Origin: Geothrix paludis
Lineage (GTDB): Bacteria; Acidobacteriota; Holophagae; Holophagales; Holophagaceae
Assembly (NCBI RefSeq): GCF_022808815.1
Contig: NZ_JAKZLC010000001.1
Location: 1-64,000, forward strand
Length of the DNA stretch: 64,000 nt
Direction of reading: 5' to 3'
Shown here: positions 29,657 to 61,398 of the stretch, in pieces
Numbering within the stretch: position 1 is the first letter of the stretch
Layout: every line of letters begins with the position of its first letter
Translations under genes and position numbers: made by a program
The notes under the pieces: generated by a model
Told to the model about the DNA's origin: nothing
The model's input: only the letters and a program-made list of their open reading frames with translations
Database searches by the model: none

Positions 29657-32217
29657 GACACCTCACTTTGCCTCGCCTCCTCCGCCGGCTCGCCGGGGCG
29701 GCCAGCGCCCTGGTGCTCCTCGTGGCCCCCTCCCTGTTCGGGGCCCAACCCGCCAATGTCGCGGCTGTGGCCATCAGCCCTGGCTCGGTGGATGTCAGCG
29801 CCTCCGCCCAGACCGTGGTGGTCACGGTGACAGATACGTCTGCCTCCGCGATGAGCGCCTCGTTGACCCTGGCCGGGGCCGGCAGTCCGACCAGCAGCCA
29901 GACCACCGGCTATGTCGCGGGCACCACGCTCTCGCCTGGCCACTTCCAGATCAGCCTGACCATCCCCCACCAGGGGGCCGCCGGCACCTGGCAGCTGTCC
30001 CTTCAGGCGACCGAGGGCAGCGGGCCCCTGGTGCAGTATCCCTGGGGCCGTCTCAAGCAGGACTTTCCACCGGCCACCGTTGAGGTGGCCAGCAGCACGG
30101 CGGATACCGCGGCCCCTCTGCTGGCTTCCTTCAGTCTGAGCCCGGCCACCATTGACACCACCAGCGCCGGCCAGGCCATCAATGCCAGCTTCTCGGTGAC
30201 GGACAACCCCTCGGGCACCAGCTCGGTGAGCTTCTGGTTCACGGGGCCGGATGGGGCCTTGTATCCCGGAGCCACCGCCCTGACCCTGGGCACGGCCCTG
30301 AGCGGCACCTGGGGCGGCGCGGTGACCATCCCCGCGGGCTCCGTGCCGGGCCTCTATCAGCTCAGCAAGGTGACCACCCTGGACACCCTCAACAACAGCC
30401 GCACCTACCTGGCGGCGGACCTGGCCAGCCTGGGCTCCCCCAGCGTCCAGAACATCGGCAAGCTGGGGCAGACCATCACGTTCGGCGCGATCCCCGACCA
30501 CACCTACGGCGACGCGCCCTTCGGCCTGATCGCCTCGGCCTCCTCGGGCCTGCCGGTCACCCTATCCATCGCTTCGGGACCGGCCACCCTCTCCGGGAAC
30601 CTGCTCACCATCACGGGTGCGGGCTATGTGACGGTGCGTGCCTCCCAGGGCGGGAACAGCACCTACACCGCCGCGACTGACGTGGAACGGACGTTCCAGG
30701 TGCTCAAGGCGGACGCCACGATCGTGGTGACGCCCTACGACGTCGCCTACGACGGCAACGCCCACACGGCCACCGGCAAGGCCACCGGCCTCAATGACCT
30801 GGACCTGGGCAGCCTGCTGACCCTGAGCGCCACGACCCACACCGACGCCGGCACCTACGCAACCGATGCCTGGACCTTCGCCGGCGACGACAACTACAAC
30901 GCCGCCAGCGGTACGGTCTCGGACCGGATCGCCAAGGTGAACGCGGTCATCACGGTGACCCCCTACAGCGTGACCTACGATGGCGCCAGTCACACGGCTA
31001 CGGCCACCGCCAAGGGCGTGGAGAGCGTTCCGGCGGACCTGGCCAGCCTGCTGACCCTCAGCGGCACCACCCACACCGATGCCGGCGACTACCCGGCGGA
31101 CGCCTGGAGCTTCGCGGGCAACACCAACTACAACCCCGCCAGCGGCACGGTGCACGATGTGATCGCCAAGGCCAACGCGGTCATCACCGTCACGCCGTAT
31201 AGCGTGACCTACGATGGCGCCGCCCACACGGCCACCGCCACGGCCAAGGGCGTGGAGGCGGTCCCCGCGGACCTGGCCAGCCTGCTGACCCTGAGCGGCA
31301 CGACGCACACCAATGCCGGCGACTACCCGGCGGACGCCTGGAGCTTCGCGGGCAACACCAACTACAACGCCGCCAGCGGCACCGTGCATGACGCCATCGC
31401 CAAGGCCAACGCGGTCATCACCGTCACGCCCTACAGCGTGACCTACGATGGCGCCGCCCACACGGCCACGGCCACGGCCAAGGGCGTGGAGGCGGTCCCC
31501 GCGGACCTGGCCAGCCTGCTGACCCTGAGCGGCACGACGCACACCAACGCCGGCGACTACCCGGCGGACGCCTGGAGCTTCGCGGGCAACACCAACTACA
31601 ACGCCGCCAGCGGCACGGTGCATGACGTCATCGCGAAGGCCAACGCGGTCATCACCGTCACGCCCTACAGCGCGATCTACGATGGCAACCCGCACACGGC
31701 CACGGCCACGGCCAAGGGCGTGGAGGCGGTCCCCGCGGACCTGGCCAGCCTGCTGACCCTGAGCGGCACGACGCACACCGACCCCGGGGACTACCCGGCG
31801 GATGGCTGGAGCTTCGCGGGCAACATCAACTACAACCCCGCCAGCGGGACGGTCCATGACGCCATCACCTACGGCTTCAACGGCCTCCTGTCTCCGTGGA
31901 ATCCCTCCAAGTCCTACAAGATCAAGAGCGCGATCCCGCTCAAGTGGCAGTACACCAATGCCTCGGGCGCGCCTGTTCCCAGCGGGTCCGCCAGCCCGAT
32001 CATCAGCATCGTGATGGTGTCGGCGGGAGACACCGGGAACGCGGACATCGCGCTGGAGGATGCTGGGAGCAGCGGGTACCAGTACGACTCGACCACCGCC
32101 ACGTGGCAGTTCAACTGGAAGACCACAGGGCTCGCCCCGGGGACCTACCTCATCTCCATCAAGTCCGGGTTGACGGGCCAGGTGAACGGGACCTTCGCGG
32201 TCATCCTGGCGCGATAG
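29653..32217 (+). CDS. secreted MBG-repeat surface protein
   Basis: 854 residues with a signal peptide (LAGAASALVLLVAPSLFGA). After an N-terminal beta region (about 35-350) come five MBG-type repeats of about 78 residues (about 352-738), each opening TPYSVTYDGxxHTATATAKG and ending with FAGNTNYN-ASGTV. The last four are nearly identical. The C-terminal domain (about 740-854), with KSAIPLKWQYTNASG and FNWKTTGLAPGTYLISIKSG, resembles the PxKF-type cell-surface domain. Such proteins are typically extracellular adhesins or matrix proteins. It is translationally coupled to the preceding secreted protein. Confidence 0.85.
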   Translation: MRHLTLPRLLRRLAGAASALVLLVAPSLFGAQPANVAAVAISPGSVDVSASAQTVVVTVTDTSASAMSASLTLAGAGSPTSSQTTGYVAGTTLSPGHFQISLTIPHQGAAGTWQLSLQATEGSGPLVQYPWGRLKQDFPPATVEVASSTADTAAPLLASFSLSPATIDTTSAGQAINASFSVTDNPSGTSSVSFWFTGPDGALYPGATALTLGTALSGTWGGAVTIPAGSVPGLYQLSKVTTLDTLNNSRTYLAADLASLGSPSVQNIGKLGQTITFGAIPDHTYGDAPFGLIASASSGLPVTLSIASGPATLSGNLLTITGAGYVTVRASQGGNSTYTAATDVERTFQVLKADATIVVTPYDVAYDGNAHTATGKATGLNDLDLGSLLTLSATTHTDAGTYATDAWTFAGDDNYNAASGTVSDRIAKVNAVITVTPYSVTYDGASHTATATAKGVESVPADLASLLTLSGTTHTDAGDYPADAWSFAGNTNYNPASGTVHDVIAKANAVITVTPYSVTYDGAAHTATATAKGVEAVPADLASLLTLSGTTHTNAGDYPADAWSFAGNTNYNAASGTVHDAIAKANAVITVTPYSVTYDGAAHTATATAKGVEAVPADLASLLTLSGTTHTNAGDYPADAWSFAGNTNYNAASGTVHDVIAKANAVITVTPYSAIYDGNPHTATATAKGVEAVPADLASLLTLSGTTHTDPGDYPADGWSFAGNINYNPASGTVHDAITYGFNGLLSPWNPSKSYKIKSAIPLKWQYTNASGAPVPSGSASPIISIVMVSAGDTGNADIALEDAGSSGYQYDSTTATWQFNWKTTGLAPGTYLISIKSGLTGQVNGTFAVILAR
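30931..31866 (+). repeat. four tandem 234-bp repeats within the MBG gene
   Basis: Repeat starts are at 30931, 31165, 31399 and 31633, exactly 234 bp (78 codons) apart. Long stretches are identical at nucleotide level between copies 2-4. A diverged copy precedes at about 30706. Recent unequal recombination or gene conversion is likely, and copy number may vary between strains. Confidence 0.9.
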
Positions 32218-47111: not shown

Positions 47112-50100
47112 TCACCAAGGCTCGTTGGCCGCGGGTACGGCACTGTGTTGGCTATCGCAGGCCGCCTGGCAGTATTTATCTGTATAACTCGACATGGAGG
47201 AGGCCTTCTGGAATCCCTGGATCTGCATATTGTTCAGGTTGTTCTGATAGGCGTATCGGGTGGGCATATTGGTGCGATCGCCAATGAGCCGCGAGCGCAA
47301 GCTGCCGTGGGGGATGACCACATGGCAGTCATAGCAAGGGTAAGAGAGGTGGTGGCCCCCGTGGGGGTCGTTGGAGAAGGTGGTGTGGCAATTGGCACAC
47401 CAGCTGGTGGAGAAATTCTGGAGGGTCACATTCGGCCAGTTGGCGGAGTTGGCGCCTTTGAGCATGAACTGGTTGGCAGATCCGTGGGGGCCCTGGGCTG
47501 CGGCGCCATCCGTGTTGTGGCAATCCGAGCACATCATGGTCTGATTGCCCACGTTGGTGACCCAGGGCGAGCCTGAAAGCATCTGGGCCTGGACCAGGGC
47601 CTTGGGGGCGTAGCTCCCGGTGTAATTGTTCAGGCTGGCCACGACGGGATGACCGGAACGGTTATTGGGGTTGAACTCGCGGGCCACATCCGTCTCCTGG
47701 AAGAGGACGGGTGAGGCGAGGTTGAACCGGGCGATTGTGCTGGTCTGTCCGAAATTGGCGCTCAGGGTCAGGTGGGTGGCGTCGGTCACGGAAGAAATGG
47801 TGTAGGCCGTCCCGCCCACGGCCTGGATCTGCCCGCCCACAAGGGCGGATGTCCAGTTGGTGCCGTAGCCGACGACCGCGGTTTTGCCGTTGGAGAAGCT
47901 GGCGCCGGGGTGGATATAGAAGTCCTGGGGTGTCGTGGAGGTGGTGGCGGTGGTGATGGTGAGGCTGGTGGCCGATGAGGCCGTGATCTGGTAGGAATTG
48001 GTGTTGCCGGAGGTCATGGCGAAGAACTGGCCGACCAATCCAGTTCCAGGGGTGCTCCCCACCGGCCAAGTGGTGCCGTAGCCTGTGACGGTGGTTGTGC
48101 CCGTGATGGCAGCGGCGTCGCGGGTCTCGTAGGCCACGTAGGCCGTGGTGGTCTGGCCGTAGATGGCGGAAATGGTCAGGGACGTGGTGGTGGAGGCGGT
48201 GACTCGGTAGGTGTTCACGGTGCCGCCCACGGGGCGGACGTACTGGCCCGCCATGTTGGTCGTGGTCCAGTTCGTGCTGGTGCCGTTGACCGTCTGGCTG
48301 TTGTTGTTGAACTTCGCCGTGCCCACGCCCGCCACCCAGGGCTGGGTGCTGCCGCTGACCAGAGTCAGGGTGCTGGTGCCGCCGGAAGTGATGCCGTTCG
48401 GCGGTGTGCTGCCGAAGGAGTAGGCGGTGTGGCACTTGAAACACACCTCGTACTCGTAGGTGGCGGTCGGGGTGGCGGTGAAGTTGGAGGCGGTGGGGGA
48501 AACCCAGAGCGCCGGGTAGGGGCTGTACCGCACACCGTCGACGCCCATCAGCGGCCCGCTTTGGACCGTGGTGCCGTTCATGATCTGGTTGCGCGTGAGG
48601 GTAGCGGTGGTGGTGTAGGTGTGCGAGCCTGCCACGGCTTTGTGGGGATTGTGGCAGTCGGCGCACATGACGGTGCGTCCGCTGGTGCGCTCCACGGGGT
48701 GGTGGATGGGCTTGATAATCTCCTGCTGGATGTTGGGCACGACCTGGTTTCCGCCCGTGGTGTTGATCTGCCCATTGGCGTCGTGGCAGGCCAGGCAGAG
48801 GTCCGAAGGGTCGTCCACCAGCAGCTTGGCGTATTTGGCCGATGTGGTCCGGGCGTCTGGCCAGCCGTGGGGATCGTGGCAGTTCACGCAGGTGGCGCGC
48901 TTGGCCGCATCCGTTGAGTAGTTGAACGCGGGATAGGTGCTCAGGCTGGAGGCAGGGGTGGACGTGGAGGGCGTGACCCACTGGCCGCCGGGCCACAGCA
49001 CCCCCTTGGTGGGGTCGAAGTGGACGCCCTTGTTGGTGGCGACCTTGGCGTAGGTGTGGCAATCGTCGCAGAGGGGGTTGGTGCCGGCGGCGGCGCCCGT
49101 GGCCTCGGCCCGCAGCAGGTTCCCGTTAGCCACCGGGGCGCCATGAATGTCGTGGCAGGACTGGCATTCCACATTGGAGGTGACGCTGAGCTTGGTGATC
49201 CCGGTGATCGGGGATGTGGCCTTGTTGTAATCGGACGTGGCGGGCAGGGGAAGCGTGATCGGATGGCTGGTACCGCCCTTGGCCGTGACATTGCGGGGGG
49301 CGTGGCAGTCCACGCACATCTGATCTGAGGTGTTGGGCAGGCGCTGGAAGTGCCGGCCGGCGCTGCCGGGGCTGATTCCCGCGGCAGCGGGATCGAAGGG
49401 CGCGTTCGCCTGCAGGTGCTGGTCATGGCAGGTGGAGCACATGAGCTGGCCGTTCTGCATCCGGGTGCTCAGCGCCGTGTTTACCGGTCCCTGAAGGTCG
49501 GGCCGCGCGTAGATCAGGTAGAGGTCGCCGGCGATGAAGGAGGGGTTCGCGGAGCCGTTGACGAATGCCACGGAAATGCCAGTGCTGCCAAGAGCGACAG
49601 GGGCAGTCGAGGTGAAGGTGCCGGTGGTGGCGGTGCCCCAGGCGCTGGTCCCGTTGACCGTCATCTGCCAGTCGAATGTGGCGGCTCCGGCTTGGCCCGC
49701 GGCGTTGATCTTGATCTGGACGGTGGTCGGGTAGGCTCCCGTGTAGTCGCCGGACAGGACGAGGCTACCCGTGGACGTATTGGGGGAGCCCTTGATCACG
49801 CGGCCAGCGGCGCCGGAATCCCAGCGGTGGGACGTTCCGGTGGGCGCGGTCCCGGTCGGGAGGCCTCGCGGAGGCAGAGCCTGGTCAGTGGGGGCGAAGG
49901 TGTGAGTGGTGGCCACCCGGCCGCCGGTGACATGGCAGCTCAGGCACAGGTTCGCGTTGCCGGCCGTGTAGGTAAGCGTCCCGCCCAGAGCCCCATGGGT
50001 CATATGGCAAGGGGTGCAGTAGTTGAGCGCACCGTAGCTGTTCGCCATCGAGATGTTGTGTGGCGGGTCGATCGCCAGCAGGGCCACGCCGGTGATGGCC

Positions 50101-50147
50101 AGCAGGCTGAGCACAAGCGCGAGACGGGTAGCGCGGAGGCGGATCAC
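47112..50147 (-). CDS. 13-heme c-type cytochrome with beta-repeat insertion
   Basis: 1011 residues with a signal peptide (TRLALVLSLLAITGVALLAI). I count 13 CxxCH haem motifs: two near residues 44-75, seven more before residue 530, one near 570 (EVCFKCH) and three after 865 (MMCSDCH, WCANCH, PCYDCH). Residues about 580-865 contain no haem but carry at least three Thr/Gly-rich repeats of about 65 residues with GYGTxW and TSLTIT-type strands, a beta-helix or fibre-like region. The C-terminus CQAACDSQH is not a standard site. Probably an outer-membrane or extracellular electron carrier. The start overlaps the NHL gene (ATGA). Confidence 0.93.
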   Translation of the reverse strand: MIRLRATRLALVLSLLAITGVALLAIDPPHNISMANSYGALNYCTPCHMTHGALGGTLTYTAGNANLCLSCHVTGGRVATTHTFAPTDQALPPRGLPTGTAPTGTSHRWDSGAAGRVIKGSPNTSTGSLVLSGDYTGAYPTTVQIKINAAGQAGAATFDWQMTVNGTSAWGTATTGTFTSTAPVALGSTGISVAFVNGSANPSFIAGDLYLIYARPDLQGPVNTALSTRMQNGQLMCSTCHDQHLQANAPFDPAAAGISPGSAGRHFQRLPNTSDQMCVDCHAPRNVTAKGGTSHPITLPLPATSDYNKATSPITGITKLSVTSNVECQSCHDIHGAPVANGNLLRAEATGAAAGTNPLCDDCHTYAKVATNKGVHFDPTKGVLWPGGQWVTPSTSTPASSLSTYPAFNYSTDAAKRATCVNCHDPHGWPDARTTSAKYAKLLVDDPSDLCLACHDANGQINTTGGNQVVPNIQQEIIKPIHHPVERTSGRTVMCADCHNPHKAVAGSHTYTTTATLTRNQIMNGTTVQSGPLMGVDGVRYSPYPALWVSPTASNFTATPTATYEYEVCFKCHTAYSFGSTPPNGITSGGTSTLTLVSGSTQPWVAGVGTAKFNNNSQTVNGTSTNWTTTNMAGQYVRPVGGTVNTYRVTASTTTSLTISAIYGQTTTAYVAYETRDAAAITGTTTVTGYGTTWPVGSTPGTGLVGQFFAMTSGNTNSYQITASSATSLTITTATTSTTPQDFYIHPGASFSNGKTAVVGYGTNWTSALVGGQIQAVGGTAYTISSVTDATHLTLSANFGQTSTIARFNLASPVLFQETDVAREFNPNNRSGHPVVASLNNYTGSYAPKALVQAQMLSGSPWVTNVGNQTMMCSDCHNTDGAAAQGPHGSANQFMLKGANSANWPNVTLQNFSTSWCANCHTTFSNDPHGGHHLSYPCYDCHVVIPHGSLRSRLIGDRTNMPTRYAYQNNLNNMQIQGFQKASSMSSYTDKYCQAACDSQHSAVPAANEPW

Positions 50148-51505
50148 TGGACACTCCCTGTCAGGTTCACGATCGTCACATCGGCAATGTTTTCGAAGGT
50201 GCGGCCATCCGTCAGGCGGCCCGACAGCACCAGGAAGGCACTTCCGTCGGGCAAGGTGGCCAGCAGGCGGCGCTCGTCGAACCAGGCCCGGTATTCCAGG
50301 AATCCGTCGTGGTCGAAGTCCCCGATGAAGGCACCAGGGACGCGCGTGGCGGCCACCCCGTTGGCGGTGAGGGTGCCGCCTTGGATGGTGGAGGGATCCA
50401 CGCCGGGGATCTTGATGAGGACGGAGATCAGGGAGGGGCGCAGGGGACTGCCGGTGATCCCATCGCCCCGCTCCCGCCAGATTTCGGGGTTCCGGGCCAT
50501 GCCTCTGCGCGTGCGGGCCCGGTCCTCGGGGGCCTCGCGAACCAGCTGGGTGGGGTTCACGGTCAGAATGGCGGCAAGGATGTGAGGATCGGTGTAGGTG
50601 TCCAGTCCGTAGACTTCCACCCGCGTATTGCCTGGCGTGGCCACGAAGAGGCGGTTGTTGCGGTCGATTGCCAGGCTGGCGGGGCCCACGAGCTGGCCGG
50701 GATCCGAGCCGAAGCTCCCCAGGTTCCCCAGCTTCACCCCGGTGGCATCCACCACCACCACCACACCGCGGAAGGAATCCGCCAGGTAGATGCGGCCCTG
50801 ACCATCGGCCAGCAGGCCCTGCACACGGCCGAAGGTGCTGTTGGATCCAACCATGCCGACCAGACCGCCGAATTTGCGAAGGAAGATACCCTGGGCATCA
50901 AAAACCTGGATGCGGCCGTTGCCCTGGTCGGAGACGAAGATTTCACCGGAAGGCGCGATGGCGATGCCGGTGGGGAAGTTGAACTGGCCCGCCTGGATGC
51001 CGGGGGTGCCGAACTGACGCACCAGCTGGTTGCCGGGGCCGTAGACCTTCACCTGGTTGGCCTGGCTGTCCACCACGTAGACCAGGCCGTTCGGCGTGAT
51101 CTGGATGTGGTTGGGCATCTGGAACTCGCCGTCACCCTGGCCAAGGTACCCCGCGGGCACCCAGCCCGGCGTGAAGATGGAAACCCGCCCCTTGCCCGCC
51201 TCGCAGACAAAGATGCGGCCCGAGGGATCCACGGCGATGCCGAGAGGCTGGGCGAAGCCCCACTTGGCCCCGAGGAACCGGCCCGCCTCGTCGCGGACCG
51301 TGATCACTCCCAGACGGGGATCCGCCACGAAGAGCCGTCCGACTGAATCTGTGGTTAGACGCACGGGTTCGCGGAATCCTTTGTCATAGGAACGCAACGG
51401 GGTGGCGACGGGAAGCGTGGCCTGGGCCGCCAAGCCGAGGGCGGACAGGAAGGCGAGGGCCATGGACAGGGCCCAGCGTCGGCGAAGGATGAACCGGCCG
51501 GTCAT
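50144..51505 (-). CDS. exported NHL-repeat beta-propeller protein
   Basis: 453 residues. Signal peptide (WALSMALAFLSALGLAAQA). Residues about 35-320 contain about six NHL-type repeats, for example FNFPTGIAIAPSGEIFVSDQ and GNGRIQVFDAQGIFLRKFGG and PNHIQITPNGLVYVVDSQAN. The C-terminal 130 residues form a separate beta domain (about 325-453). NHL propellers are protein-interaction scaffolds and often sit in multihaem cytochrome clusters. It leads the leftward operon, with a 10-nt C-tract in its leader, and overlaps the 13-heme gene. Confidence 0.9.
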   Translation of the reverse strand: MTGRFILRRRWALSMALAFLSALGLAAQATLPVATPLRSYDKGFREPVRLTTDSVGRLFVADPRLGVITVRDEAGRFLGAKWGFAQPLGIAVDPSGRIFVCEAGKGRVSIFTPGWVPAGYLGQGDGEFQMPNHIQITPNGLVYVVDSQANQVKVYGPGNQLVRQFGTPGIQAGQFNFPTGIAIAPSGEIFVSDQGNGRIQVFDAQGIFLRKFGGLVGMVGSNSTFGRVQGLLADGQGRIYLADSFRGVVVVVDATGVKLGNLGSFGSDPGQLVGPASLAIDRNNRLFVATPGNTRVEVYGLDTYTDPHILAAILTVNPTQLVREAPEDRARTRRGMARNPEIWRERGDGITGSPLRPSLISVLIKIPGVDPSTIQGGTLTANGVAATRVPGAFIGDFDHDGFLEYRAWFDERRLLATLPDGSAFLVLSGRLTDGRTFENIADVTIVNLTGSVQ

Positions 51506-51536
51506 GGGATGACCTCCAGGGGACGGGCTGCATAGA

Positions 51537-51652: not shown

Positions 51653-51814
51653 AAATCAGTCGTTTCTTGAAGGCCCCTAAGAAAAAAAAACCAGATGATC
51701 AAAATCACAAAAATAGATGACCCGTAGTTCGCTTATGGGCCCTATGGTTCGAGGGTCGGCTGACAGGTTCCTGTGACGTTGTCCGATGCAAGACATCCAC
51801 GAGGCCGAACCGCC

Positions 51815-52882
51815 ATGTCCAATCGTTCCATCCTGCTGTCCGTTGCCCTCGCATGTGCCGCGACCGCGACGGCGCCTCTGTCCGCGCAGAAGCCCGCCGC
51901 GCCTCCCGTGGCGCAGGACGAGGTGCTGGCCTGGCCCCCGCCGCCTGCTCCCGCCCGCATCAAGTGGGTGGCTGAGTACCGCAACGCCTTCGATGTGGGC
52001 GCCAAGAAGAAGCGCAGCTTCATCGACCGCCTGGCGGGCAAGTCCGAAGAGGTGATCTGGATCCAGCGCCCTCTCAGCGTGGCGGTGGATGGCCAGGGCG
52101 TGATCTTCGTGGGCGACTACAACCTGGGCGTCGTGGCCATGGATCCGGCGAACAAGAAGGTCTGGGCCTTCTCCGCCGTCAGTGGTGCGGTGCTGACCAC
52201 CCCCACGGGGCTGGCCGTGGATTCCAAGCTGGTCTACGCGGCCAGCGCCAACACGAGCCAAGTGGTGGTCTTCGACAAGGACGGGCGCCAGCTCGGCGTC
52301 CTGGGCAAGGCCGATGGCATCAAGCGCCCCGTCGGGCTGGCGGTGGATGAGTCCCGGAACCTGCTCGTGGTGGTGAACGGAGACGAGCATGCCGTGCGCC
52401 TCTACTCGCGATCGCTGAACCTGATCAAGACCATCGGCGGCCGGGGCAGCGAGGAGGGCCAGTTCAACTTCCCCACCTACGTGTGCATGGTGCCCGGCGT
52501 GGGATTCGCGGTGGTGGATTCGGGCAACTTCCGTGTCCAGCTCTTCGACTTCAACGGGAGGTTCCTCCGGGCTTTCGGCAAGGTGGGCGACATGGCAGGC
52601 CAGTTCGCGCGGCCCAAGGGCATCGCGGTGGATCCCGAGGGCCACCTTTACGTGGCGGACGCAGCTTTCAACAACTTCCAGATCTTCGATCAGGAGGGCC
52701 GCGTCCTCACCTTCGTGGGCCAAGGTGGTGCGCGCAAGGGCCAGTTCCAGGTTCCCACTGGCCTCTCCATCGACGCCAACGGCGGCATCTACGTGGCCGA
52801 TCAAATCAACGGACGCATCCAGAAATTCCAATATTTGCGGGAGGAAAAGGAGGCACCTGCCCCCGGACCGACCCCGCAATAA
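51815..52882 (+). CDS. exported NHL-repeat beta-propeller protein (second)
   Basis: 355 residues with signal peptide (LLSVALACAATATAPLSA). A six-bladed NHL propeller spans about 75-345, e.g. ARPKGIAVDPEGHLYVADAA, FNFPTYVCMVPGVGFAVVDS and QVPTGLSIDANGGIYVADQI. The C-terminus is a short Glu/Pro tail. It heads the rightward operon (NHL, tetraheme cytochrome, barrel, octaheme cytochrome, parvulin). Probably a periplasmic or surface scaffold for the cytochromes. A homologue heads the divergent operon. Confidence 0.9.
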   Translation: MSNRSILLSVALACAATATAPLSAQKPAAPPVAQDEVLAWPPPPAPARIKWVAEYRNAFDVGAKKKRSFIDRLAGKSEEVIWIQRPLSVAVDGQGVIFVGDYNLGVVAMDPANKKVWAFSAVSGAVLTTPTGLAVDSKLVYAASANTSQVVVFDKDGRQLGVLGKADGIKRPVGLAVDESRNLLVVVNGDEHAVRLYSRSLNLIKTIGGRGSEEGQFNFPTYVCMVPGVGFAVVDSGNFRVQLFDFNGRFLRAFGKVGDMAGQFARPKGIAVDPEGHLYVADAAFNNFQIFDQEGRVLTFVGQGGARKGQFQVPTGLSIDANGGIYVADQINGRIQKFQYLREEKEAPAPGPTPQ

Positions 52883-52939: not shown

Positions 52940-53593
52940 ATGAAATCCCTTCTCGTCGTCCTGCTGGCCGCCGGCTCCCTGAGCCTGTCCGCCGCGGGCA
53001 TCACCGGCACCAAGCATGACCTGAGCACCAACGCCCTTGCCGGCCAGGCGCACACGAACACCACCCAGGTCTGCGTGTTCTGCCACGCCCCCCACAATGC
53101 CGCTTCGAGCACGGCCCAGCTCGTGCCTCTGTGGAACCGGAAGTTCCAGGGCGCCACCCCGTCCTTCACCCTCTACAGCAGCGCGACCCTGACCTCCACG
53201 CCCACCCAGCCCACCGGAGCCAGCCTGGCCTGCTTCACCTGCCATGACGGCACGACCTCCGTGGGCAACCTCATCAACATCCCCTCTGACGTCGCTTCCA
53301 TCTCCTACACGGCCGGTGGCAATGTCAATGCGAGCGGCGTGCTGGGCGGGGCCGCGGCTCTCGGCACGGACCTGAGCAACGACCACCCCGTGTCCATGAC
53401 CTACCCGACCAAGACCGGCCTGGTGGTCCCCACCGTGGCGGGCTCGACCTCTAATGTCGGCGGCCTTCCCCTCTTCAGCAGCAAGGTCGAGTGCGCCAGC
53501 TGCCACGACGTGCACAGCAATGCGGTCGCCGCGCCCTTCCTGCGCGCGTCCATGACCAATTCCGCGCTCTGCACCACCTGCCACATCAAGTAG
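52940..53593 (+). CDS. tetraheme c-type cytochrome, OmcE-like (candidate nanowire subunit)
   Basis: 217 residues. Signal peptide (KSLLVVLLAAGSLSLSAAG). Four CxxCH sites at residues about 45-49 (CVFCH), 98-102 (CFTCH), 185-189 (CASCH) and 211-215 (CTTCH). Extra histidines suitable as distal ligands are TKHDL (26), APHN (52), NDHP (149) and DVHS (192), giving bis-His coordination. The size, heme count and motifs (VCVFCHAPHN, SLACFTCHDG, NDHPVS) resemble OmcE of Geobacter sulfurreducens, which polymerises into extracellular cytochrome filaments. Filament formation here is inferred. It follows the NHL gene and precedes the outer-membrane barrel. Confidence 0.9.
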   Translation: MKSLLVVLLAAGSLSLSAAGITGTKHDLSTNALAGQAHTNTTQVCVFCHAPHNAASSTAQLVPLWNRKFQGATPSFTLYSSATLTSTPTQPTGASLACFTCHDGTTSVGNLINIPSDVASISYTAGGNVNASGVLGGAAALGTDLSNDHPVSMTYPTKTGLVVPTVAGSTSNVGGLPLFSSKVECASCHDVHSNAVAAPFLRASMTNSALCTTCHIK

Positions 53594-53677
53594 TCCAGGC
53601 ACTGCGACACGCATGATGCGCGGGGGGTGGTTCCACCCGCCCCCCGCTTTTTCGACCTCCTTTTCCGAAGGTCTGCC

Positions 53678-55456
53678 GTGAGGCTTGGAACATTCACGCT
53701 GCTTCTCGCGGGCGCGGCCATCGCCGGGCGGGCGGAGGACTGCCCTCTGGTGCTGAACCAGCGGTTCCAGCTCCGCTACAACCAATGGCAATCCAGCCAG
53801 ATGTCCAGCACTTCCACCACCCAGGCCATCTACGAGGTGGATGCGGGCATCCCCATCTTCACGTATCGCCTGGGCGCCCTGGCTCTGAACGGGGCGGTGG
53901 AATACAACCGCCTGGCCTACAGCAATGAGTCGGGAGCCGATCTGGGACTGAACCGGTACGGGGCCCGCGTCAGCCTGTTCCCCTATCGTCCGTTCCGCCT
54001 CTATCTGGACTACCAGCACACCCAGTCCCCGGATCTGCTGGGCTCTGGATCGCTGAAGGGCGAAACCTGGGGCGGGGGGATTCGTTACGCCAACCGATTC
54101 CTCGGCGATACCTTCCTCACTTATCGCCATGGCGACGCCAGGCTGGAGGGAGGAGCCACGCCGGGGGCCTATCGGGATGAATGGGCCCAGTGGAAACTGG
54201 AGACCCACCACCGCCTTCAACAGACTCAGATCGATTTCGAGGCTCTCCGCCAGGACTACCGACCGCTCGACACGCCGGCCTGGAGATTCATCACCCTGCA
54301 TCTGGACACGGACACTCTTCTTGCCCGGGACTGGAAGCTTCGCACCCGATCCCAGGCACAGGATTCCGGACTCAGCCGCTGGTCCGATTTCAACGCTTCG
54401 TTCTACGGCCCCATCAGTGGCGCCTGGCACTCCTTGACCAGCGCGTCCATCGGGTCTTCGACCCAGGACAAGGTCCACACGACCACCAGCTTCACGTCGG
54501 AATCCCTGGTGTACGAAGTCCGAAAATGGCATGCCCACCTTACGGGAAGCTACAGCGGGAACGACACGCCGGCCGAATTCCGGAGTGAACGCACGAGCGC
54601 GCTTCTCGTGGGCGGGTCCTACGCCGTGAGTCCCGAATGGAGGCTCCATGGAGACGCGGGACTGTCGTACTTCCAGCAGTCCCTCGTAACCGACGACAAT
54701 GCCAAGCGTTTCACGTCCCTGAACCTGGGTGTCGCCCGAGGGGGAGATGTGCCGGAGCTGATCCGCCACAGCCTCTTTTTCCTCAGCGATTGGCGCTTCG
54801 ATCAGAGGGTGCGCGAGGAATATCCGCCGGATTTCGTGCCGACTGAGTTGGCTCAGGAGATGCTCAGGCGGCGGATGCGCCAGACCGGGTCCTTCGCATT
54901 CACTGCGGACGTGTGGCGCATGAGCGACAGTGGAACAGGCGGGACGTTGGATTGGGCCAGGATCACGGGGCAGGTGCTAACCAGGAGTGACCTGTCCGTG
55001 TACCTGATGGGGGATTTCAAGCACGACAAGGGTCTCGCCCGACCCGGCTTGGAGCTTCGCAACAGCGATTTCCTGGTGAACGGCTCGTATCGGCTGGGAC
55101 TCACCACATTGACCGCATCCATGGGATACAGCGATGACCGCGAGAGCCAGGCCGTGGCCTCGACGTGGAGTCCGGCGCCTGCCCTGGGGAATCAGAGCGG
55201 CCTTAGCCGGCGCTACACCGCGGGCGCCACGACCCGGCTCTGGAAGGTTCCGGTCGGCGTGCTGATCCTTCGGTACGATGCCTCCATGGTTCCCGCCACA
55301 ACCACCGTGTCCACATGGGCCGACTTGAGCTTCCGCCAGGTCTCCCTGCGTGTCCGGTACCAGACTTCACGCACGGATGGCGGCCTCCGCAACGACAGCA
55401 TCAATGTGGATCTGCTGCGTTGGTTCGACGCGATCTGCATAAGGAACTGGCGATGA
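53678..55456 (+). CDS. outer-membrane beta-barrel of a porin-cytochrome system
   Basis: 592 residues. The GTG at 53678 gives a clean signal peptide (LGTFTLLLAGAAIAGRA); an earlier start is unlikely. The mature protein is rich in alternating strands with aromatic girdles, for example YRLGALALNGAVEYNRLAY and RPFRLYLDYQHTQSP, and ends in a short strand-like WFDAICIRNWR. It is the size of MtrB/OmbB-type barrels that hold periplasmic and extracellular cytochromes together, but no N-terminal CxxC is visible. Its stop overlaps the octaheme start (ATGA at 55453), so a stoichiometric partner is likely. Confidence 0.85.
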   Translation: MRLGTFTLLLAGAAIAGRAEDCPLVLNQRFQLRYNQWQSSQMSSTSTTQAIYEVDAGIPIFTYRLGALALNGAVEYNRLAYSNESGADLGLNRYGARVSLFPYRPFRLYLDYQHTQSPDLLGSGSLKGETWGGGIRYANRFLGDTFLTYRHGDARLEGGATPGAYRDEWAQWKLETHHRLQQTQIDFEALRQDYRPLDTPAWRFITLHLDTDTLLARDWKLRTRSQAQDSGLSRWSDFNASFYGPISGAWHSLTSASIGSSTQDKVHTTTSFTSESLVYEVRKWHAHLTGSYSGNDTPAEFRSERTSALLVGGSYAVSPEWRLHGDAGLSYFQQSLVTDDNAKRFTSLNLGVARGGDVPELIRHSLFFLSDWRFDQRVREEYPPDFVPTELAQEMLRRRMRQTGSFAFTADVWRMSDSGTGGTLDWARITGQVLTRSDLSVYLMGDFKHDKGLARPGLELRNSDFLVNGSYRLGLTTLTASMGYSDDRESQAVASTWSPAPALGNQSGLSRRYTAGATTRLWKVPVGVLILRYDASMVPATTTVSTWADLSFRQVSLRVRYQTSRTDGGLRNDSINVDLLRWFDAICIRNWR

Positions 55457-56679
55457 GACATCGGCCGTCGTTCAGACTGTTCCGAGGCCTTGCCGTCGGT
55501 TTGGCGATGGGTCTGGCGATGAATCCGGGGTTCGCCCAGGTCGGGTCCACAGGTGTCGCTTCGGCCAAGGCGCCAACCCGGAGTGGGATCTCGTTGGTTC
55601 ATGGGGCCTGCCTGACCTGCCACAAAAATCATCGCGGGAGCGGGCGCACCAGCCAGAAGCCGGCTCGCGAGGCGACAGACCAGCTGTGCCTGTCCTGCCA
55701 TGAGGGGACGAACACCGCTCCCAGCGAGGGATTCGCCCCCAAGCTCTCGAGCTGGAGCGGCCAGGGCTCCGGTCACACGAAGGAACGGTTCAGTTCCCGC
55801 CGGCCCGGTACCTACGTCCGTTCGGTCCAGGTCAATCCATCCAGGCAGATTCGCCTGACTCAGGATTGCTCCGGTTGCCACGATCCCCATGGGAAGGAAC
55901 GCGGCAAACTCCGCAACACAGCCTTCGATGACCGTGGCCGATTGCTGGACCGTCATCCTCAGTCCACGGCCGACATCTGCTTCGGATGTCATGCCGGTCC
56001 GGAGGCGGCACCCCTCACATCCGGCAACGCCGACATCGGTCAGCTGTTTGGAAAGGGTGCTCCTTCCTCCCACGGCATTGGAGCCACCGCCGCGAGCCAT
56101 CCGGAACTGCCCAGTTTGCGCGCATCAGCCTTCCAGGGGCGGCTGGACTGCACCTCCTGCCATGACAATCCCGATCCGACGGGTGCCCGGGGGCCGCACT
56201 TTTCGATCAATGCCGCCCTCCTGAAGGCTTCCTTTGGCCATGAGAAGGACATGGGGCGCCTGGGAGAACGCGCCAACGACCTCTGCCATCTCTGCCATGA
56301 CCGGCAGTCCATCCTCGCCAACCAATCTTTCCCCTTCCACGCCCAGCACCTGAGTGGGTTCACCAACAGCGGCTCAATGGCCGCTCAGCGACAGGTGCCG
56401 ACTCTCTCCGAGGCGGCGGCGGTGCTGGGGCTGCGCTCACCGAAGGACCTCCGTCCCGGGCGGAGCGGCGCCTTCCAGCCGGGCTACGGCGAGCCGACCG
56501 CCTGCGCCACCTGCCATGCCTCCCATGGTTCCCTGCGGCAGGCAGCCCTCATCGAGTTCGACCGCTCTGTGGTGACTGCTTCTTCGGTCGGCGGGCCGTC
56601 CTTCCAGCGGTCGGGCCTCGGCCACGGCACCTGCACCCTGAGCTGCCACGGCTACGACCACGTGCAGACGCGCTATTGA
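55453..56679 (+). CDS. octaheme c-type cytochrome, probable partner of the barrel
   Basis: 408 residues. Signal peptide (LAVGLAMGLAMNPGFAQ). Seven standard haem sites: CLTCH, CLSCH, CSGCH, CFGCH, CTSCH, CHLCH and CATCH, plus one CX3CH site near the C-terminus (CTLSCHGYDH), giving eight haems if the latter is used. The overlap with the barrel gene suggests a periplasmic cytochrome inserted in or docked to it, by analogy with OmaB/MtrA. It precedes the parvulin gene. Confidence 0.9.
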   Translation: MRHRPSFRLFRGLAVGLAMGLAMNPGFAQVGSTGVASAKAPTRSGISLVHGACLTCHKNHRGSGRTSQKPAREATDQLCLSCHEGTNTAPSEGFAPKLSSWSGQGSGHTKERFSSRRPGTYVRSVQVNPSRQIRLTQDCSGCHDPHGKERGKLRNTAFDDRGRLLDRHPQSTADICFGCHAGPEAAPLTSGNADIGQLFGKGAPSSHGIGATAASHPELPSLRASAFQGRLDCTSCHDNPDPTGARGPHFSINAALLKASFGHEKDMGRLGERANDLCHLCHDRQSILANQSFPFHAQHLSGFTNSGSMAAQRQVPTLSEAAAVLGLRSPKDLRPGRSGAFQPGYGEPTACATCHASHGSLRQAALIEFDRSVVTASSVGGPSFQRSGLGHGTCTLSCHGYDHVQTRY

Positions 56680-56715: not shown

Positions 56716-58272
56716 ATGCATGACGCCCCCTCGTTGCAGAATGGCTTCACCCGGATCCAGATGGCGATCCTGGTGGGCGCGCTCGGGCTGGGTCCTGCCG
56801 TGACGGCGGCGCCCGCCCTGCGTTCGATCCGCACAGTCGATGCCGAGGCGGAACACCTGAAGGCGATCCGGGCGGCGGAGCCGGGCCTATCCGCCGAGGC
56901 CGCGAGAGCCAGGCTCGCCCGGCTGGAGAAGGCCTGGGCGCTGGCTGGGACCAGAGGGCTCCTGAAGGCGCCAGAGTGGCAGGAACGCCGTCAGGAGGGT
57001 CGCCTTGCCGTGCTGGGGAGGGCCTTCCTCGACTCCCGGCCGGGTCATGCCGGCATGACCGAGGCGCAGGTCAAGGCCGCCTTCCTGGCCCAGGGGGAAG
57101 AACGTCACGTGTCGCACCTCCTGTGCAAGACCCGGGAGGAGGCCGAGGCGGCCCTGAAGCGCATCCAGGCAGGAGAGCCCTTCGAGAAGGTGGCCGCCGA
57201 GGTTTCCGTGGATCCCAGCGCGGCCCAGAACAAGGGCGACCTGGGCTGGATCCGGCAGAAGCAGCTGGTGCCTGCCTTCGGCAGTCCCGTGTTCGCTGCT
57301 CCCGTGGGCGCGCCGGTGGGCCCCATTCAAAGCGAGTTCGGCTGGCATGTCGCCAAGGCCTGGGAAGCCCGGCGTGAGACGGAGGTGGACTTCGCCGCGC
57401 AGCGGGAAACCCTGCTGAAGGAGGCGGCGGCCGCCCAGACGAAGATGAAGCGGCAGGCGGCCCTGGACGCGCTGCGTCCCCGGTATCCACTGGTTCCCGA
57501 CCTGGCCGTGCTGGGCGCGGACCGCACCACGGAGATCCTGCCGGGCGATGAGCGCAAGGTGGCGGGCCGGGTGGCCGGGACGACCATCAGCCTGCGGCGG
57601 CTCAAGCGGCATCTGGTCGAGGTGCTCAGGACCATGGGCCAGAGTCATTCGCTGGGTGCCGCCACGAAGGCTGAGTTCATGGAGGGCGTGGCGGACCAGA
57701 TCCGTCTCGCCGCCGCGGCCAGGAAGCAGGGGCTCGACCGGAAGCCCGGGGTTCAGGCCGCCCTCTGGCTGGACGAGCGGGAGCGCGCGTACTCCCGCTA
57801 CGCCGAATCCTACCTCGCCGAAGCCCAGGTGCCCGAGGTCAACCTGGCGGAGCACCACGAGGCTTTCCCGGACCGCTTCCGGCAGGTGGGCGCCTTGCGC
57901 CTGCAGGTGCTGGTGGCCGATTCCAAGGACGAAGCGGACGCGGCCCTGAATGAGGTGCGGACGGGTCTGCCCTGGCGAGAGGCCGTGGCGCGGCACGCCG
58001 ACGCGGAGGCCACGGGCAACCCCGAACCCGGCTGGGTGGAGGTGGCCTCACTCCAAACGCTGGTGCCCCCCACGCTCATGCAGGCTCTCCTGGCAGGACC
58101 CCTGGGCCAACCGGTGGGCCCCATGCTGGGCCCGGATGGCTTCATGATCTTCAATGCCCTGGAGCGGCGTTCCGGTCCCGTGATGCCGCTGGACGAATGC
58201 CGCGAGGCCGTGCGGGCGGACTACCTCAAGGCGCACGGCCCCGACCTGGTGGAGCGCAGCCTGGGCGACTAA
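56716..58272 (+). CDS. double-parvulin peptidyl-prolyl isomerase (foldase)
   Basis: 518 residues. A hydrophobic N-terminus (QMAILVGALGLGPAVTA) suggests export. Two parvulin (PpiC) domains: one at about 125-225 (RHVSHLLCKTREEAEAALKR, GDLGWIRQKQLVPAFGSPVF) and one near 390-490 (LRLQVLVADSKDEADAALNE, EPGWVEVASLQTLVPPTLMQ), with a helical chaperone-like part between. PpiC-type isomerases are encoded beside cytochromes in Geobacter cytochrome clusters and may fold the haem proteins or filament subunits. It is the last gene before a terminator. Confidence 0.88.
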   Translation: MHDAPSLQNGFTRIQMAILVGALGLGPAVTAAPALRSIRTVDAEAEHLKAIRAAEPGLSAEAARARLARLEKAWALAGTRGLLKAPEWQERRQEGRLAVLGRAFLDSRPGHAGMTEAQVKAAFLAQGEERHVSHLLCKTREEAEAALKRIQAGEPFEKVAAEVSVDPSAAQNKGDLGWIRQKQLVPAFGSPVFAAPVGAPVGPIQSEFGWHVAKAWEARRETEVDFAAQRETLLKEAAAAQTKMKRQAALDALRPRYPLVPDLAVLGADRTTEILPGDERKVAGRVAGTTISLRRLKRHLVEVLRTMGQSHSLGAATKAEFMEGVADQIRLAAAARKQGLDRKPGVQAALWLDERERAYSRYAESYLAEAQVPEVNLAEHHEAFPDRFRQVGALRLQVLVADSKDEADAALNEVRTGLPWREAVARHADAEATGNPEPGWVEVASLQTLVPPTLMQALLAGPLGQPVGPMLGPDGFMIFNALERRSGPVMPLDECREAVRADYLKAHGPDLVERSLGD

Positions 58273-58353: not shown

Positions 58354-61300
58354 CTAGGTGTGGCAGGCGTCGCAGCCGGAGACGGCCAGCAGCTTCGGGC
58401 TCTTGGAGAAGTGGGGCTGGTGGCAGGAGAGGCAGGTGAGGGGCTTGCCGGTGGCCTTGACAGTGCGGCCTGAGGTCGGATGGTTGGCCACCGGGTGGCC
58501 AGCCTTCTTGTCCTTGTGGCAGTTCAGGCAGAGGGTCTGGACCTCGCCGCGGGGGAAGCCCTTGGCGTCGCCGCCGTGGGCTGTGTGGCAGGTGGCGCAG
58601 AGGCCGTCCATTACGGGCTTGTGCTTCGAGACCGCCTTGTTGGCTTCGTCCCGCAGGCCGTCGTGGCACTGGAGGCAAAGGTCCTTGGGGTTGCCGGCCA
58701 GGAGGGAGGGCCGGGTGGAGGCGTGGGGCGTATGGCAGGCGGTGCACTCGCCGTTGGCCACCGGGGGATGGGGGAAGGCCTTCTTGGCGGCCGTGGCCAC
58801 GCCGTCATGGCAGTTGAAGCAGAGGCCAGGCATGGCTTCGTTGGTCGCGAAGGGCTTGGGCGCGGCGCTGTCCGCATGGCAGGTGCTGCAGTCGCCCGCG
58901 GCCACCGGCGGGTGGGCGGTGGCCTTGAGCATGCCGTCGTTGTTCGAGCCGTGAGGGTCGTGGCAGGTGGCGCAGTCCTTGGCGGACACGGGGTAGCCCT
59001 TGTGGGCCTTCTTCAGGTCCCCGGCGTCGTGGCAGCTGACGCACAGCTCCTCCATGGGCTGGAGGAGGCCCTTGGCCAGCTTGCCCGTGTGGACGGCGTG
59101 GCAGCTGAGGCACTCGCCGGAGGCGGCGGGCTGGTGGGCGTGCTTCGACTTCACCGCCGCGGCGATGGAGGTGTGGCATCCCAGGCACAGGTCCAGGGGC
59201 TTCTGGCGAAGCAGGTGCTGGGCCTCGGTCTGGTGGGGCGCGTGGCAGTCTCGACAGCTGCTGTCCAGATAGGGCTTGTGCCCCCAGCCGCCCTTGGGCG
59301 CCTCGGCCTTCTCGTGGCAGGTGAGGCAGACCTGGCTGCCGGGCTTCTCCAGCAGGGCTTCGGTCTTGGAGGCGTGGGGACGGTGGCAGGACAGGCACTC
59401 GCCGCCCTTGAAGGGCTGGTGCTGGGTGGCGCCGGCCTTGGGCTCCAGGTCCGCGTGGCAGGTGCGGCAGAGCTGGGGCACGGGCTGGTCCAGGCGGGGC
59501 GTGCCCGCCGGGAGCTTGGCGCCGGGGGCCGGGGAGGCATGGCAGTTGGCGCAGTTCTCCAGGAAGGGCGGGTGGGCGCCCTTGAGGATCAGGCCCTTCT
59601 TCGTCGAAGTGTGAGGCTCGTGGCAGCCCAGGCAGTCCACCTTCGCCAGCGAGCTGGTGAGGTGCTTGCGGCCCAGGGCTTCGTCCGCAAGGTCATGGCA
59701 GGTCGCGCAGGTCTCCTGGATCCGGGGGGAGGCTAGCAGGGCCAGCCCGTCGCCGGAGTGGGGGCTGTGGCAGCTGCTGCACTGGCCGTCGTTCACGGGG
59801 GAGTGCACGACCTGGAACTTGTCCTTGCGGGTGTGGCAGGTGTAGCAGCCTTCGGGCTGGTCCCGCTTCAGGAACTTGGCCTGATCGCCGCCGTGTGGAT
59901 CGTGGCAGGCGAGGCAGCCGCGCTTTCCGGTGGCGGGCTGGTGTTTCACATCGCCCTTCATCAGGCCGGCATGGCAGGCGGTGCAGAGCTTGTCGGTGTC
60001 GTCCTTCACGAGCTTCGCGAGCGCGCCGCCGTGGGGTGTGTGGCAGGCGCTGCACTGGCCGTTCTTCACAGGAGCGTGGAGCACCTTGCGCTTCACGATC
60101 TTCTCGTGGCAGGCGCCGCATGCGGCCAGCTCGCCGCCTTTGATGAGCTTGGCGGAAGCTGAGGCGTGGGGCGTGTGGCAGGCGAGGCACTGGCCCTTCT
60201 TCGCCGGGGCATGGAGGACCTCACCCTTCGCCACGCCGGTGTGGCAGGTGGCGCAGAGCGTCTCGCCGGCCTGCTTGAGAACCGGGGGGGTGGCGGTGGC
60301 GTGGGCCCCGTGGCAGACGAGGCAGTCACCCTGGGCGGCCGGCGCGTGCTGGCTCTTGCCCTTGACGAGGTCCTCGTGGCAGGTGAGGCACAGCTGCTTC
60401 GCGGGCGCGGTGAGGAGGGCCTTTTCCTTCGAGTCGTGGGGCCGGTGGCAGTCCATGCAGGCGCCATCCCGGAAGGGTGGATGCAGGGACTTCCCCTTGG
60501 CGAGGTCCGTGTGGCAGCCGGCGCACAGCTCTTGGGGCGGGGCCGTGAGGAGGCCCTTGGCGTCCCCGGCATGGGGCCGGTGGCAGGTGAGACACTTCCC
60601 ATCCTTCGCCGGCTGGTGCTGCACGCCGGGGCCGGGCAGGGGGCCGTGGCAGTCGAGGCACAGCTCTGTTACGGGCTTCGCCAGCTTCACGGCACCGCCG
60701 GCGGCGGGCGCATGGCAGTCGGCGCAGGAACCCGGCGCGAAAGGGGCGTGCTGACGGTCGCGCAGGAGGCCCTTGGCCGCGCCGCCGTGGGGGTTGTGGC
60801 AGGTGGCGCAGGCCTCCGCCTTCAGTGGGAAGCCACCGTGGGTCTTCGAGAGGCCGGCCACGTCGTGGCAGGTATCGCACTGACCCGGGACGCCCGCCTT
60901 GAGGAGGCTGCGCGTGGCCGAGGGATGGGGCTGGTGGCAGGCCAGGCAGTCGTCCGTGGCCGGATGGGGATGGGCCGACGTGGTGCGGGTCTTGATGTCG
61001 GCGTGGCAGGAGAGGCACAGTTCCTGGGTGTCCTTCCGGAGCAGGCGCTTCCGTCCCGTGTCGTGGGCGCCGTGGCAGGCGCCGCACTCGCCCTTGGATT
61101 CGAAGCGGTGCGCTGGGCGCTCATTGGCGGTCTGCTTGAACCCCTTGTGGCAGATGGCACAGAGCGCCCGGCCCCCGCCCTCGTGGAGGAGGTTGACGTT
61201 CGCCGCGCCGTGGGGCTTGTGGCACCACTGGCACTTCCCGTCGAGCAGGGGCTTGTGGGCCGTGGTGGGAGAGGCGGCCTGACGGACCTTGGGATGGCAA

Positions 61301-61398
61301 TCCTGGCAGGTTCGGGGCGTGTCCGCGGCCCGGCAGGGTACGAGGCCTGCCAGCAGGGCGAGCAGAAGGAAAGCGAGGGTCCGGCGTGGAGGGGTCAT
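58354..61398 (-). CDS. 42-heme c-type cytochrome
   Basis: 1014 residues, exported (RTLAFLLLALLAGLVPCRA). I count 42 CxxCH haem sites, one per 24 residues, evenly spread from CQDCH near residue 32 to the last CDACH close to the C-terminus. About every second site is followed by a PH or AH (CxxCHxPH, as in CQWCHKPH, CLTCHRPH, CSACHTPH), so nearly each haem has a nearby His partner. The core of the protein is built from a repeating pair of sites spaced by charged, Lys-rich linkers, indicating tandem duplication of a two-haem unit. No other domain is visible. Start at 61398, since the signal peptide begins there; the frame is open farther upstream. Probably periplasmic or surface, a long electron conduit. 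Confidence 0.95.
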   Translation of the reverse strand: MTPPRRTLAFLLLALLAGLVPCRAADTPRTCQDCHPKVRQAASPTTAHKPLLDGKCQWCHKPHGAANVNLLHEGGGRALCAICHKGFKQTANERPAHRFESKGECGACHGAHDTGRKRLLRKDTQELCLSCHADIKTRTTSAHPHPATDDCLACHQPHPSATRSLLKAGVPGQCDTCHDVAGLSKTHGGFPLKAEACATCHNPHGGAAKGLLRDRQHAPFAPGSCADCHAPAAGGAVKLAKPVTELCLDCHGPLPGPGVQHQPAKDGKCLTCHRPHAGDAKGLLTAPPQELCAGCHTDLAKGKSLHPPFRDGACMDCHRPHDSKEKALLTAPAKQLCLTCHEDLVKGKSQHAPAAQGDCLVCHGAHATATPPVLKQAGETLCATCHTGVAKGEVLHAPAKKGQCLACHTPHASASAKLIKGGELAACGACHEKIVKRKVLHAPVKNGQCSACHTPHGGALAKLVKDDTDKLCTACHAGLMKGDVKHQPATGKRGCLACHDPHGGDQAKFLKRDQPEGCYTCHTRKDKFQVVHSPVNDGQCSSCHSPHSGDGLALLASPRIQETCATCHDLADEALGRKHLTSSLAKVDCLGCHEPHTSTKKGLILKGAHPPFLENCANCHASPAPGAKLPAGTPRLDQPVPQLCRTCHADLEPKAGATQHQPFKGGECLSCHRPHASKTEALLEKPGSQVCLTCHEKAEAPKGGWGHKPYLDSSCRDCHAPHQTEAQHLLRQKPLDLCLGCHTSIAAAVKSKHAHQPAASGECLSCHAVHTGKLAKGLLQPMEELCVSCHDAGDLKKAHKGYPVSAKDCATCHDPHGSNNDGMLKATAHPPVAAGDCSTCHADSAAPKPFATNEAMPGLCFNCHDGVATAAKKAFPHPPVANGECTACHTPHASTRPSLLAGNPKDLCLQCHDGLRDEANKAVSKHKPVMDGLCATCHTAHGGDAKGFPRGEVQTLCLNCHKDKKAGHPVANHPTSGRTVKATGKPLTCLSCHQPHFSKSPKLLAVSGCDACHT

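Follow-up and report, generated by a model that had tools for sequence, protein, structure and literature searches.

The window analysed here, a 64,000-nucleotide stretch of a Geothrix genome (Acidobacteriota), carries a c-type cytochrome gene with 42 haem-binding motifs beside a group of smaller cytochrome, barrel, isomerase and NHL-repeat genes:

47112..50147, minus strand: 13-haem cytochrome, 1011 aa, haems widely spaced
50144..51508, minus strand: second NHL-repeat protein
51773..52882, plus strand: NHL-repeat beta-propeller protein
52940..53593, plus strand: 4-haem cytochrome
53627..55456, plus strand: probable outer-membrane beta-barrel (weak Porin_4 match, below cut-off)
55453..56679, plus strand: 7-haem cytochrome, phase BABAAAB (haem types defined below)
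56716..58272, plus strand: PpiC/SurA-type prolyl isomerase (PPIase; Rotamase match), convergent with the 42-haem gene
58354..61398, minus strand: 42-haem c-type cytochrome gene, 1014 aa, stop included; 42 CxxCH, Paired_CXXCH_1, orthologues
61324..61398, minus strand: predicted Sec signal peptide of ~25 residues, its cleavage site placed by eye

The frame of the 42-haem gene is open throughout from the ATG at 61398 to the stop at 58354-58356, and direct counting in the 1014-aa product bears out both the 42 CxxCH motifs and the one haem per 24 residues (1014/42 = 24.1) reported by the first-pass annotation; CX3CH and CX4CH do not occur. Nearly all cysteines (84 of 85) lie within CxxCH motifs, the remaining one being in the signal peptide, and 200 shuffles of the protein returned a mean of 0.65 CxxCH and a maximum of 4. 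The Paired_CXXCH model (PF09699, Paired_CXXCH_1) matches over 22 stretches with 660.2 bits against a Pfam cut-off of 20.6. All 11 orthologues share the start Met in the alignment, and because the lone Cys 22 of the signal peptide varies among them, the protein is not a conserved lipoprotein. The protein would be exported and loaded with all 42 haems, the calculated mass of the mature apoprotein being 103.7 kDa, or about 130 kDa with 42 haems.

Calling a haem type B when a His stands at +7 of its motif (CxxCHxxH), and every other haem type A, the string reads ABABABABA ABABABABABABABABA ABABABABA ABABABA, with four blocks of 9, 17, 9 and 7 haems. It comprises 19 CxxCH/CxxCHxxH pairs, three single haems (9, 26 and 35) in which the His preceding the motif is present and the following one absent, and the terminal haem 42. 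The regular pairing described earlier hence holds for the 19 pairs and for a two-haem basic unit, but not for the three unpaired haems or the last one. The segments of this string used in the comparisons below are, all on the minus strand:

60619..61332: haems 1-10, block 1 (haems 1-9, single haem 9) plus the first haem of block 2; best PDB match the chain we read as MtrA (E 4.7e-18)
59428..60144: haems 18-27, the end of block 2 (haems 10-26, single haem 26) plus haem 27; best PDB match the same presumed MtrA chain (E 2.9e-17)
59470..59553: junction of haems 26 and 27, the split point between the 26- and 16-haem proteins of relatives; haem 26 is the sole non-invariant haem in Geothrix
58780..59493: haems 27-36, block 3 (haems 27-35, single haem 35) plus haem 36; the module modelled with AlphaFold2

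TRF detected no tandem DNA array inside the gene, and nucleotide identity between two-haem units has a median of 50% and a maximum of 66%, so that the repeat duplications must be old. Growth by tandem duplication, as first proposed, is thus tenable as an ancient event only, and the copy-number variation of the repeat that had been suggested as a check was not found among 11 Geothrix copies, save one with 43 motifs. A build-up from three homologous nine-haem modules was weakened, as only some block comparisons stand out when units are permuted within type with the single haems set aside (8 of 11 sequences, omitting those three in which the haem 26 motif is displaced or accompanied by a second one). 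Haems 10-17 and 27-34 stand out (0/5000 permutations), haems 1-8 and 27-34 are marginal (186/5000, uncorrected for nine comparisons), and neither haems 1-8 against 18-25 nor 18-25 against 27-34 show excess likeness by this test.

Full-length orthologues in the same frame were found in 7 of 36 other Geothrix genomes, which places the gene in 8 of 37 genomes with its own included, two of the eight carrying two copies; since the other 29 (some of them incomplete assemblies) gave no full-length match, we regard it as accessory in this genus. Among named relatives the closest are Geothrix sp. SG200 (93%), G. terrae SG184 (92%), G. fuzhouensis SG12 (87%) and G. fermentans DSM 14018 (86%), the one-chain version thus being present in G. 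fermentans, a cultured isolate, and dN/dS against the four nearest relatives is 0.14-0.21. Across the 11 Geothrix copies, whose lowest mutual identity is 51%, spacings are nearly identical, with exactly 42 haems in ten and 43 in one, and 41 of 42 CxxCH as well as 44 of 46 non-motif His are invariant. That many His are enough for bis-His ligation of all 42 haems, which we infer on this basis. In two copies haem 26 is displaced by 10 residues towards the C-terminus, and a further copy carries a motif at each of the two positions and so totals 43; these three form one clade, and it looks as though the site moved via a 43-haem intermediate. No match was found on plasmids, and other phyla were covered by a single short-pattern scan, a method weak for distant relatives.

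A profile of the 11 copies (A1) was searched against 199 and later 396 Acidobacteriota genomes (overlapping samples); at a strict E limit it undercounts two-chain loci. Besides the 11 Geothrix copies, full one-chain 42-haem proteins occur in genomes G332 and G199 (both of one family), G146, G091 and G310, and G127 has the one-chain layout from haem 3 onward at a contig edge. Ten genomes with eight family codes (G180, G164, G102, G118, G128, G202, G288, G267, G296 and G327) carry instead a pair of neighbouring genes in the same orientation, one with 26 motifs and one with 16; their strings are positions 1-26 and 27-42 of the one-chain string except at haem 40 of G118. The cut falls exactly after single haem 26, the same haem that is the only non-invariant one in Geothrix. 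Ahead of the first haem, the leader stretch of nine of the ten 16-haem genes includes a Met and in most looks hydrophobic by eye; in that of G118 no Met was found.

Conservation was scored on 27 complete or nearly complete loci, 17 one-chain and 10 two-chain. Omitted were G147, G341, G359 and G367, which are interrupted by a contig end or a gap in the assembly and in which the 26-haem part or its start is visible; matches of other architecture (21-, 38- and 20-haem, 16-haem of the AAAB type, and 13-haem) were set aside, and the matches in G045, G248 and G298 were not taken at full length. In this set 39 of the 42 haems are kept in every locus, haems 1-2 in 26 (one row is clipped by a contig edge) and haem 26 in 25, and 41 non-motif His are kept in at least 25 of 27. 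The haem string is identical in 22 loci; the five deviating ones are one with 43 haems, one that is truncated and agrees over the rest, and three whose sole difference is haem 40, which is of type B in one-chain G091 and G310 and two-chain G118. Identity to the window protein outside the ligands meanwhile falls to 20% (20-23% for two-chain forms). The preservation of one layout, as a single protein or as 26- and 16-haem neighbours, suggests an electron wire of fixed length. Spacing from haem 26 to haem 27 in one-chain forms is mostly the normal 23-28 residues, so that the haem row continues in register, and the split proteins would then dock head to tail.

A tree of the loci built without the junction columns unites 15 one-chain rows (100/100) and places one-chain G091 and G310 among two-chain rows, the best tree having 2 changes between the forms. 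This placement, together with the type B haem 40 that the two share with G118, points to two switches, although the AU test does not reject all one-chain forms as a single clade (p 0.28).

To characterize the fold, the ten-haem module of haems 27-36 was modelled by AlphaFold2 from 33 aligned module copies (pLDDT 85.7, pTM 0.75). Foldseek returned a sole significant PDB match, 6r2q_A (E 2.4e-5, TM 0.52), with which VIA-align superposes 171 residues at 3.7 Å (Z 9.6). This chain, labelled 'Cystathionine beta-synthase' in the sequence table, we take to be MtrA because it is part of the Mtr structure. It is likewise the top PDB match in profile searches with each part, at 9.8e-29 for the 26-haem and 2.2e-26 for the 16-haem one, and with the three ten-haem modules. 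An MtrA-type fold is accordingly predicted for haems 27-36 only; in sequence every part matches MtrA, and an earlier candidate reading in which only the 16-haem half is MtrA-like was rejected. Being spread over all parts, the likeness does not point to which part, if any, enters a barrel. A full-length AlphaFold2 model from the 11 orthologues (pLDDT 35, pTM 0.22) was set aside and lends no support to one straight wire. The MtrA/DmsE decahaem model TIGR03508 scores 404.6 bits against a cut-off of 192.2, a score summed over nine stretches of a protein with 42 CxxCH rather than ten, and automatic 'decahaem' naming on such a score may hide the 42-haem protein.

The gene order of the window (13-haem and NHL on the minus strand; NHL, 4-haem, barrel, 7-haem and PPIase on the plus strand; 42-haem on the minus strand) recurs at other Geothrix loci, and the barrel gene and a close PPIase homologue each track the 42-haem gene, being found in just those 8 of 37 Geothrix genomes that carry it. 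Near the two-chain loci we find a barrel, a ~190-aa protein, a PPIase, NHL genes and often a 6-haem cytochrome, at low similarity and with not every piece at every locus. The window barrel has no NCBIfam match and no curated MtrB-type match, its Porin_4 match being weak, and the cluster genes examined included no recognisable inner-membrane quinol oxidase. The 13-haem cytochrome is a possible outer-surface partner of the 42-haem protein. The first-pass annotation was silent on this barrel, isomerase and NHL neighbourhood, as it was on the block structure, the fixed number and the two-gene form.

Among known systems, MtrA/DmsE (6r2q chain A; TIGR03508) shares with the protein the best sequence match of every part, the best fold match of the ten-haem module, paired CxxCH with bis-His ligation and a barrel gene nearby; it differs in having 10 haems against 42, and the present locus has no recognised MtrB-type barrel and has additional NHL and PPIase genes. 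The score against NF041028 (GSU2203 family decahaem) is 321.7 for a cut-off of 325, and the barrel beside one two-chain locus (L120:657-2744, G296) weakly matches the GSU2204 model, yet the GSU2203 family at the G. sulfurreducens GSU2203 (OmcK)/GSU2204 locus has ten haems. That locus presumably also includes GSU2210, with about 27 haems. The OmcS, OmcE and OmcZ nanowires offer a stacked bis-His haem chain for long-distance transfer as well, but they are polymers of short subunits, whereas here 42 haems lie in one chain or two; OmcS (6ef8) and 7tfs, which we take to be OmcE, are weak PDB profile matches of the 42-haem parts. The trihaem-c7 'nanowire' model TIGR04257 is absent among the matches of the protein at E 0.01, and no description of the gene neighbourhood of known nanowires was found in two papers examined for it. 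PMC7096707 gives OmcS as a hexahaem.

Closer parallels in size exist. The PCC3 clusters of Fe(II)-oxidising Proteobacteria (He et al. 2017, PMC5566968) combine a barrel with very long, dense multihaem cytochromes, proposed as molecular wires able to span the envelope. PCC3 pairs its barrel with two such cytochromes; the present locus has a barrel, the 42-haem protein and further cytochromes of 13, 7 and 4 haems. PCC3 haem numbers vary widely between species and the number here is fixed, and the five-helix inner-membrane protein of PCC3 was not found in the window, where a scan of ORFs above 150 aa for its WX3HX13H motifs gave a single motif, in a frame on the minus strand overlapping the 42-haem gene. 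The 24- and 49-haem cytochromes of Burkholderiales (PMC7399161) are giant paired-CxxCH proteins beside an OmbB-like barrel with about 23 residues per haem; unlike here, their haem number varies between relatives 80-89% identical. With 22.4 and 23.4 residues per haem they are also packed more tightly than the present protein, which is dense, but the supposition that it is near the densest is not borne out. Nor is its count extreme against a supposed Geobacter maximum of about 30: PMC7399161 reports one protein of 45 motifs from a Geobacter genome, another of 49 from a Burkholderiales, and 38 proteins in the range of 30-53 motifs, PMC7096707 cites 86, 69 and 58 haems, and PMC7082337 describes 113 motifs in archaea. 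The kind is therefore already known, longer cytochromes beside barrels having been published (PMC5566968, PMC7399161); a fixed 42-haem layout across a phylum in one- and two-gene forms was not found in the open-licence PMC literature searched.

Taken together, we consider it probable that the protein is an exported, bis-His, MtrA-type wire of fixed 42 haems and serves as the long conductor of a porin-cytochrome conduit in Acidobacteriota. At the level of sequence, this reading is supported by the 42 motifs, the near-complete set of conserved non-motif His, the fixed haem order, the 26+16 two-gene form, the MtrA-like sequence and the conserved neighbourhood, and the predicted fold of the ten-haem module is MtrA-like as well; placement in the periplasm and at the outer membrane, and a role in metal or electrode respiration, would be in keeping with it. 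In this scheme periplasmic donors would feed electrons into the haem row, where they would hop from each haem to the next until they reach the outer-membrane barrel and the partner cytochromes encoded nearby, the wire extending from the periplasm to, or through, the barrel. The dedicated prolyl isomerase might help to fold the proline-rich 42-haem chain and the NHL propellers might act as its scaffold. By a linear rule of about 27 haems per ~200 Å periplasm, with 86 haems making 630 Å (PMC7096707), 42 haems would measure ~310 Å, 26 haems ~193 Å and 16 haems ~118 Å. The 26-haem part so estimated is near the ~200 Å quoted there for the periplasm.

More tentatively, there may be one standard Acidobacteriota wire of 42 haems, the number and the places of the single haems having been selected because the length fits the envelope; two-gene species would then dock their 26- and 16-haem proteins head to tail with haems 26 and 27 touching, and the one-gene form would be the covalent version, the switch having occurred at least once and probably twice. 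A somewhat less likely explanation of the constancy is inertia, in which the protein is ancient, its ligands cannot be changed singly and total length is unselected; the haem order of the 21-haem family in the same sample is indeed also constant (5 genomes), but 42 is kept even where the gene is split in two, and the gain and loss of haem domains between the 80-89% identical relatives described in PMC7399161 indicates that change is easy.

The main rival to placement in a conduit is a location outside the outer membrane, the protein being secreted or surface-attached and extending to minerals or to partner cells in the manner of the extracellular PCC3 component. We think this unlikely, as the orthologues lack a conserved lipobox or surface anchor, the ten-haem module is nearer to MtrA, which sits in the barrel facing the periplasm, than to MtrC/OmcA, and the 13-haem cytochrome at 47112-50147 would make the better surface candidate. 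The appeal of an outside location lies in the median of 34 motifs in PCC3 extracellular cytochromes (PMC5566968), in the 30-53-haem proteins of PMC7399161, all predicted there to be extracellular or of unknown location and none periplasmic, and in the ~310 Å estimate, which exceeds the ~200 Å periplasm quoted in PMC7096707. An electron store that holds charge when acceptors are scarce, an idea raised for similar proteins in PMC7399161 and compatible with the high haem density, is distinctly improbable because a capacitor needs no fixed haem number or order, yet 42 haems and the single-haem positions are kept at ~20% identity. Finally, the assembly or frame error that the first-pass annotation named as its refuter, to which long repetitive genes are prone, can be dismissed, as nothing here supports it and 11 Geothrix copies from separate genome records, isolates included, have open frames with the same spacings and dN/dS of 0.14-0.21.

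For most metal-respiring bacteria it is still a question whether electrons cross the ~200 Å periplasm by shuttling or along a continuous wire. A wire fixed at 42 haems, with naturally fused and naturally split 26+16 forms, makes this question testable, since the split form predicts a haem-to-haem contact between proteins and the length can be altered pair by pair.

Besides the 42-haem gene, the window contains the following features:

47112-50147: 13-haem cytochrome of 1011 aa, with inter-haem gaps of up to 304 residues.
30801-31866: a 234-bp unit repeated in tandem, with 4.6 copies at a 91% match.

Two consecutive genes of the 13-haem type occur in G. terrae and G. fermentans, and the tandem array falls within an 854-aa ORF (29653-32217). 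Matches to the probable outer-membrane beta-barrel gene carry one in-frame TGA each at G006:C3:476456-478285 and at G009:C8:136898-138697 (genome, contig, positions), reflecting in either case an error or a real disruption.

Other multihaem layouts also occur. A separate 21-haem family keeps the string AAABABAABABABAABABABA (B, CxxCHxxH; A, otherwise) constant in 5 Acidobacteriota genomes (loci L110, L109, L124, L119 and L126), in some of which 4-haem and 7-haem cytochromes lie near the gene. A 55-haem protein in a Bacteroidetes MAG (locus L036:9932-14056) follows a strict three-haem period with spacings of 33, 16 and 25 and is a giant but unrelated layout. Caution is needed with PDB 6r2q chain A, which the sequence table names cystathionine beta-synthase, a name error, although it is a multihaem chain of the Mtr complex.

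Within Geothrix, the copy from MAG C12 bin.44 has 43 haems: at the junction that follows haem 25 it carries one motif at the old haem 26 site and another at the new one, whereas two relatives from the same clade keep the new site alone (loci L005/L034 versus L006 and L007). Judging from these sequences, the haem 26 site has apparently been caught in the course of moving, the 43-haem copy carrying both sites.
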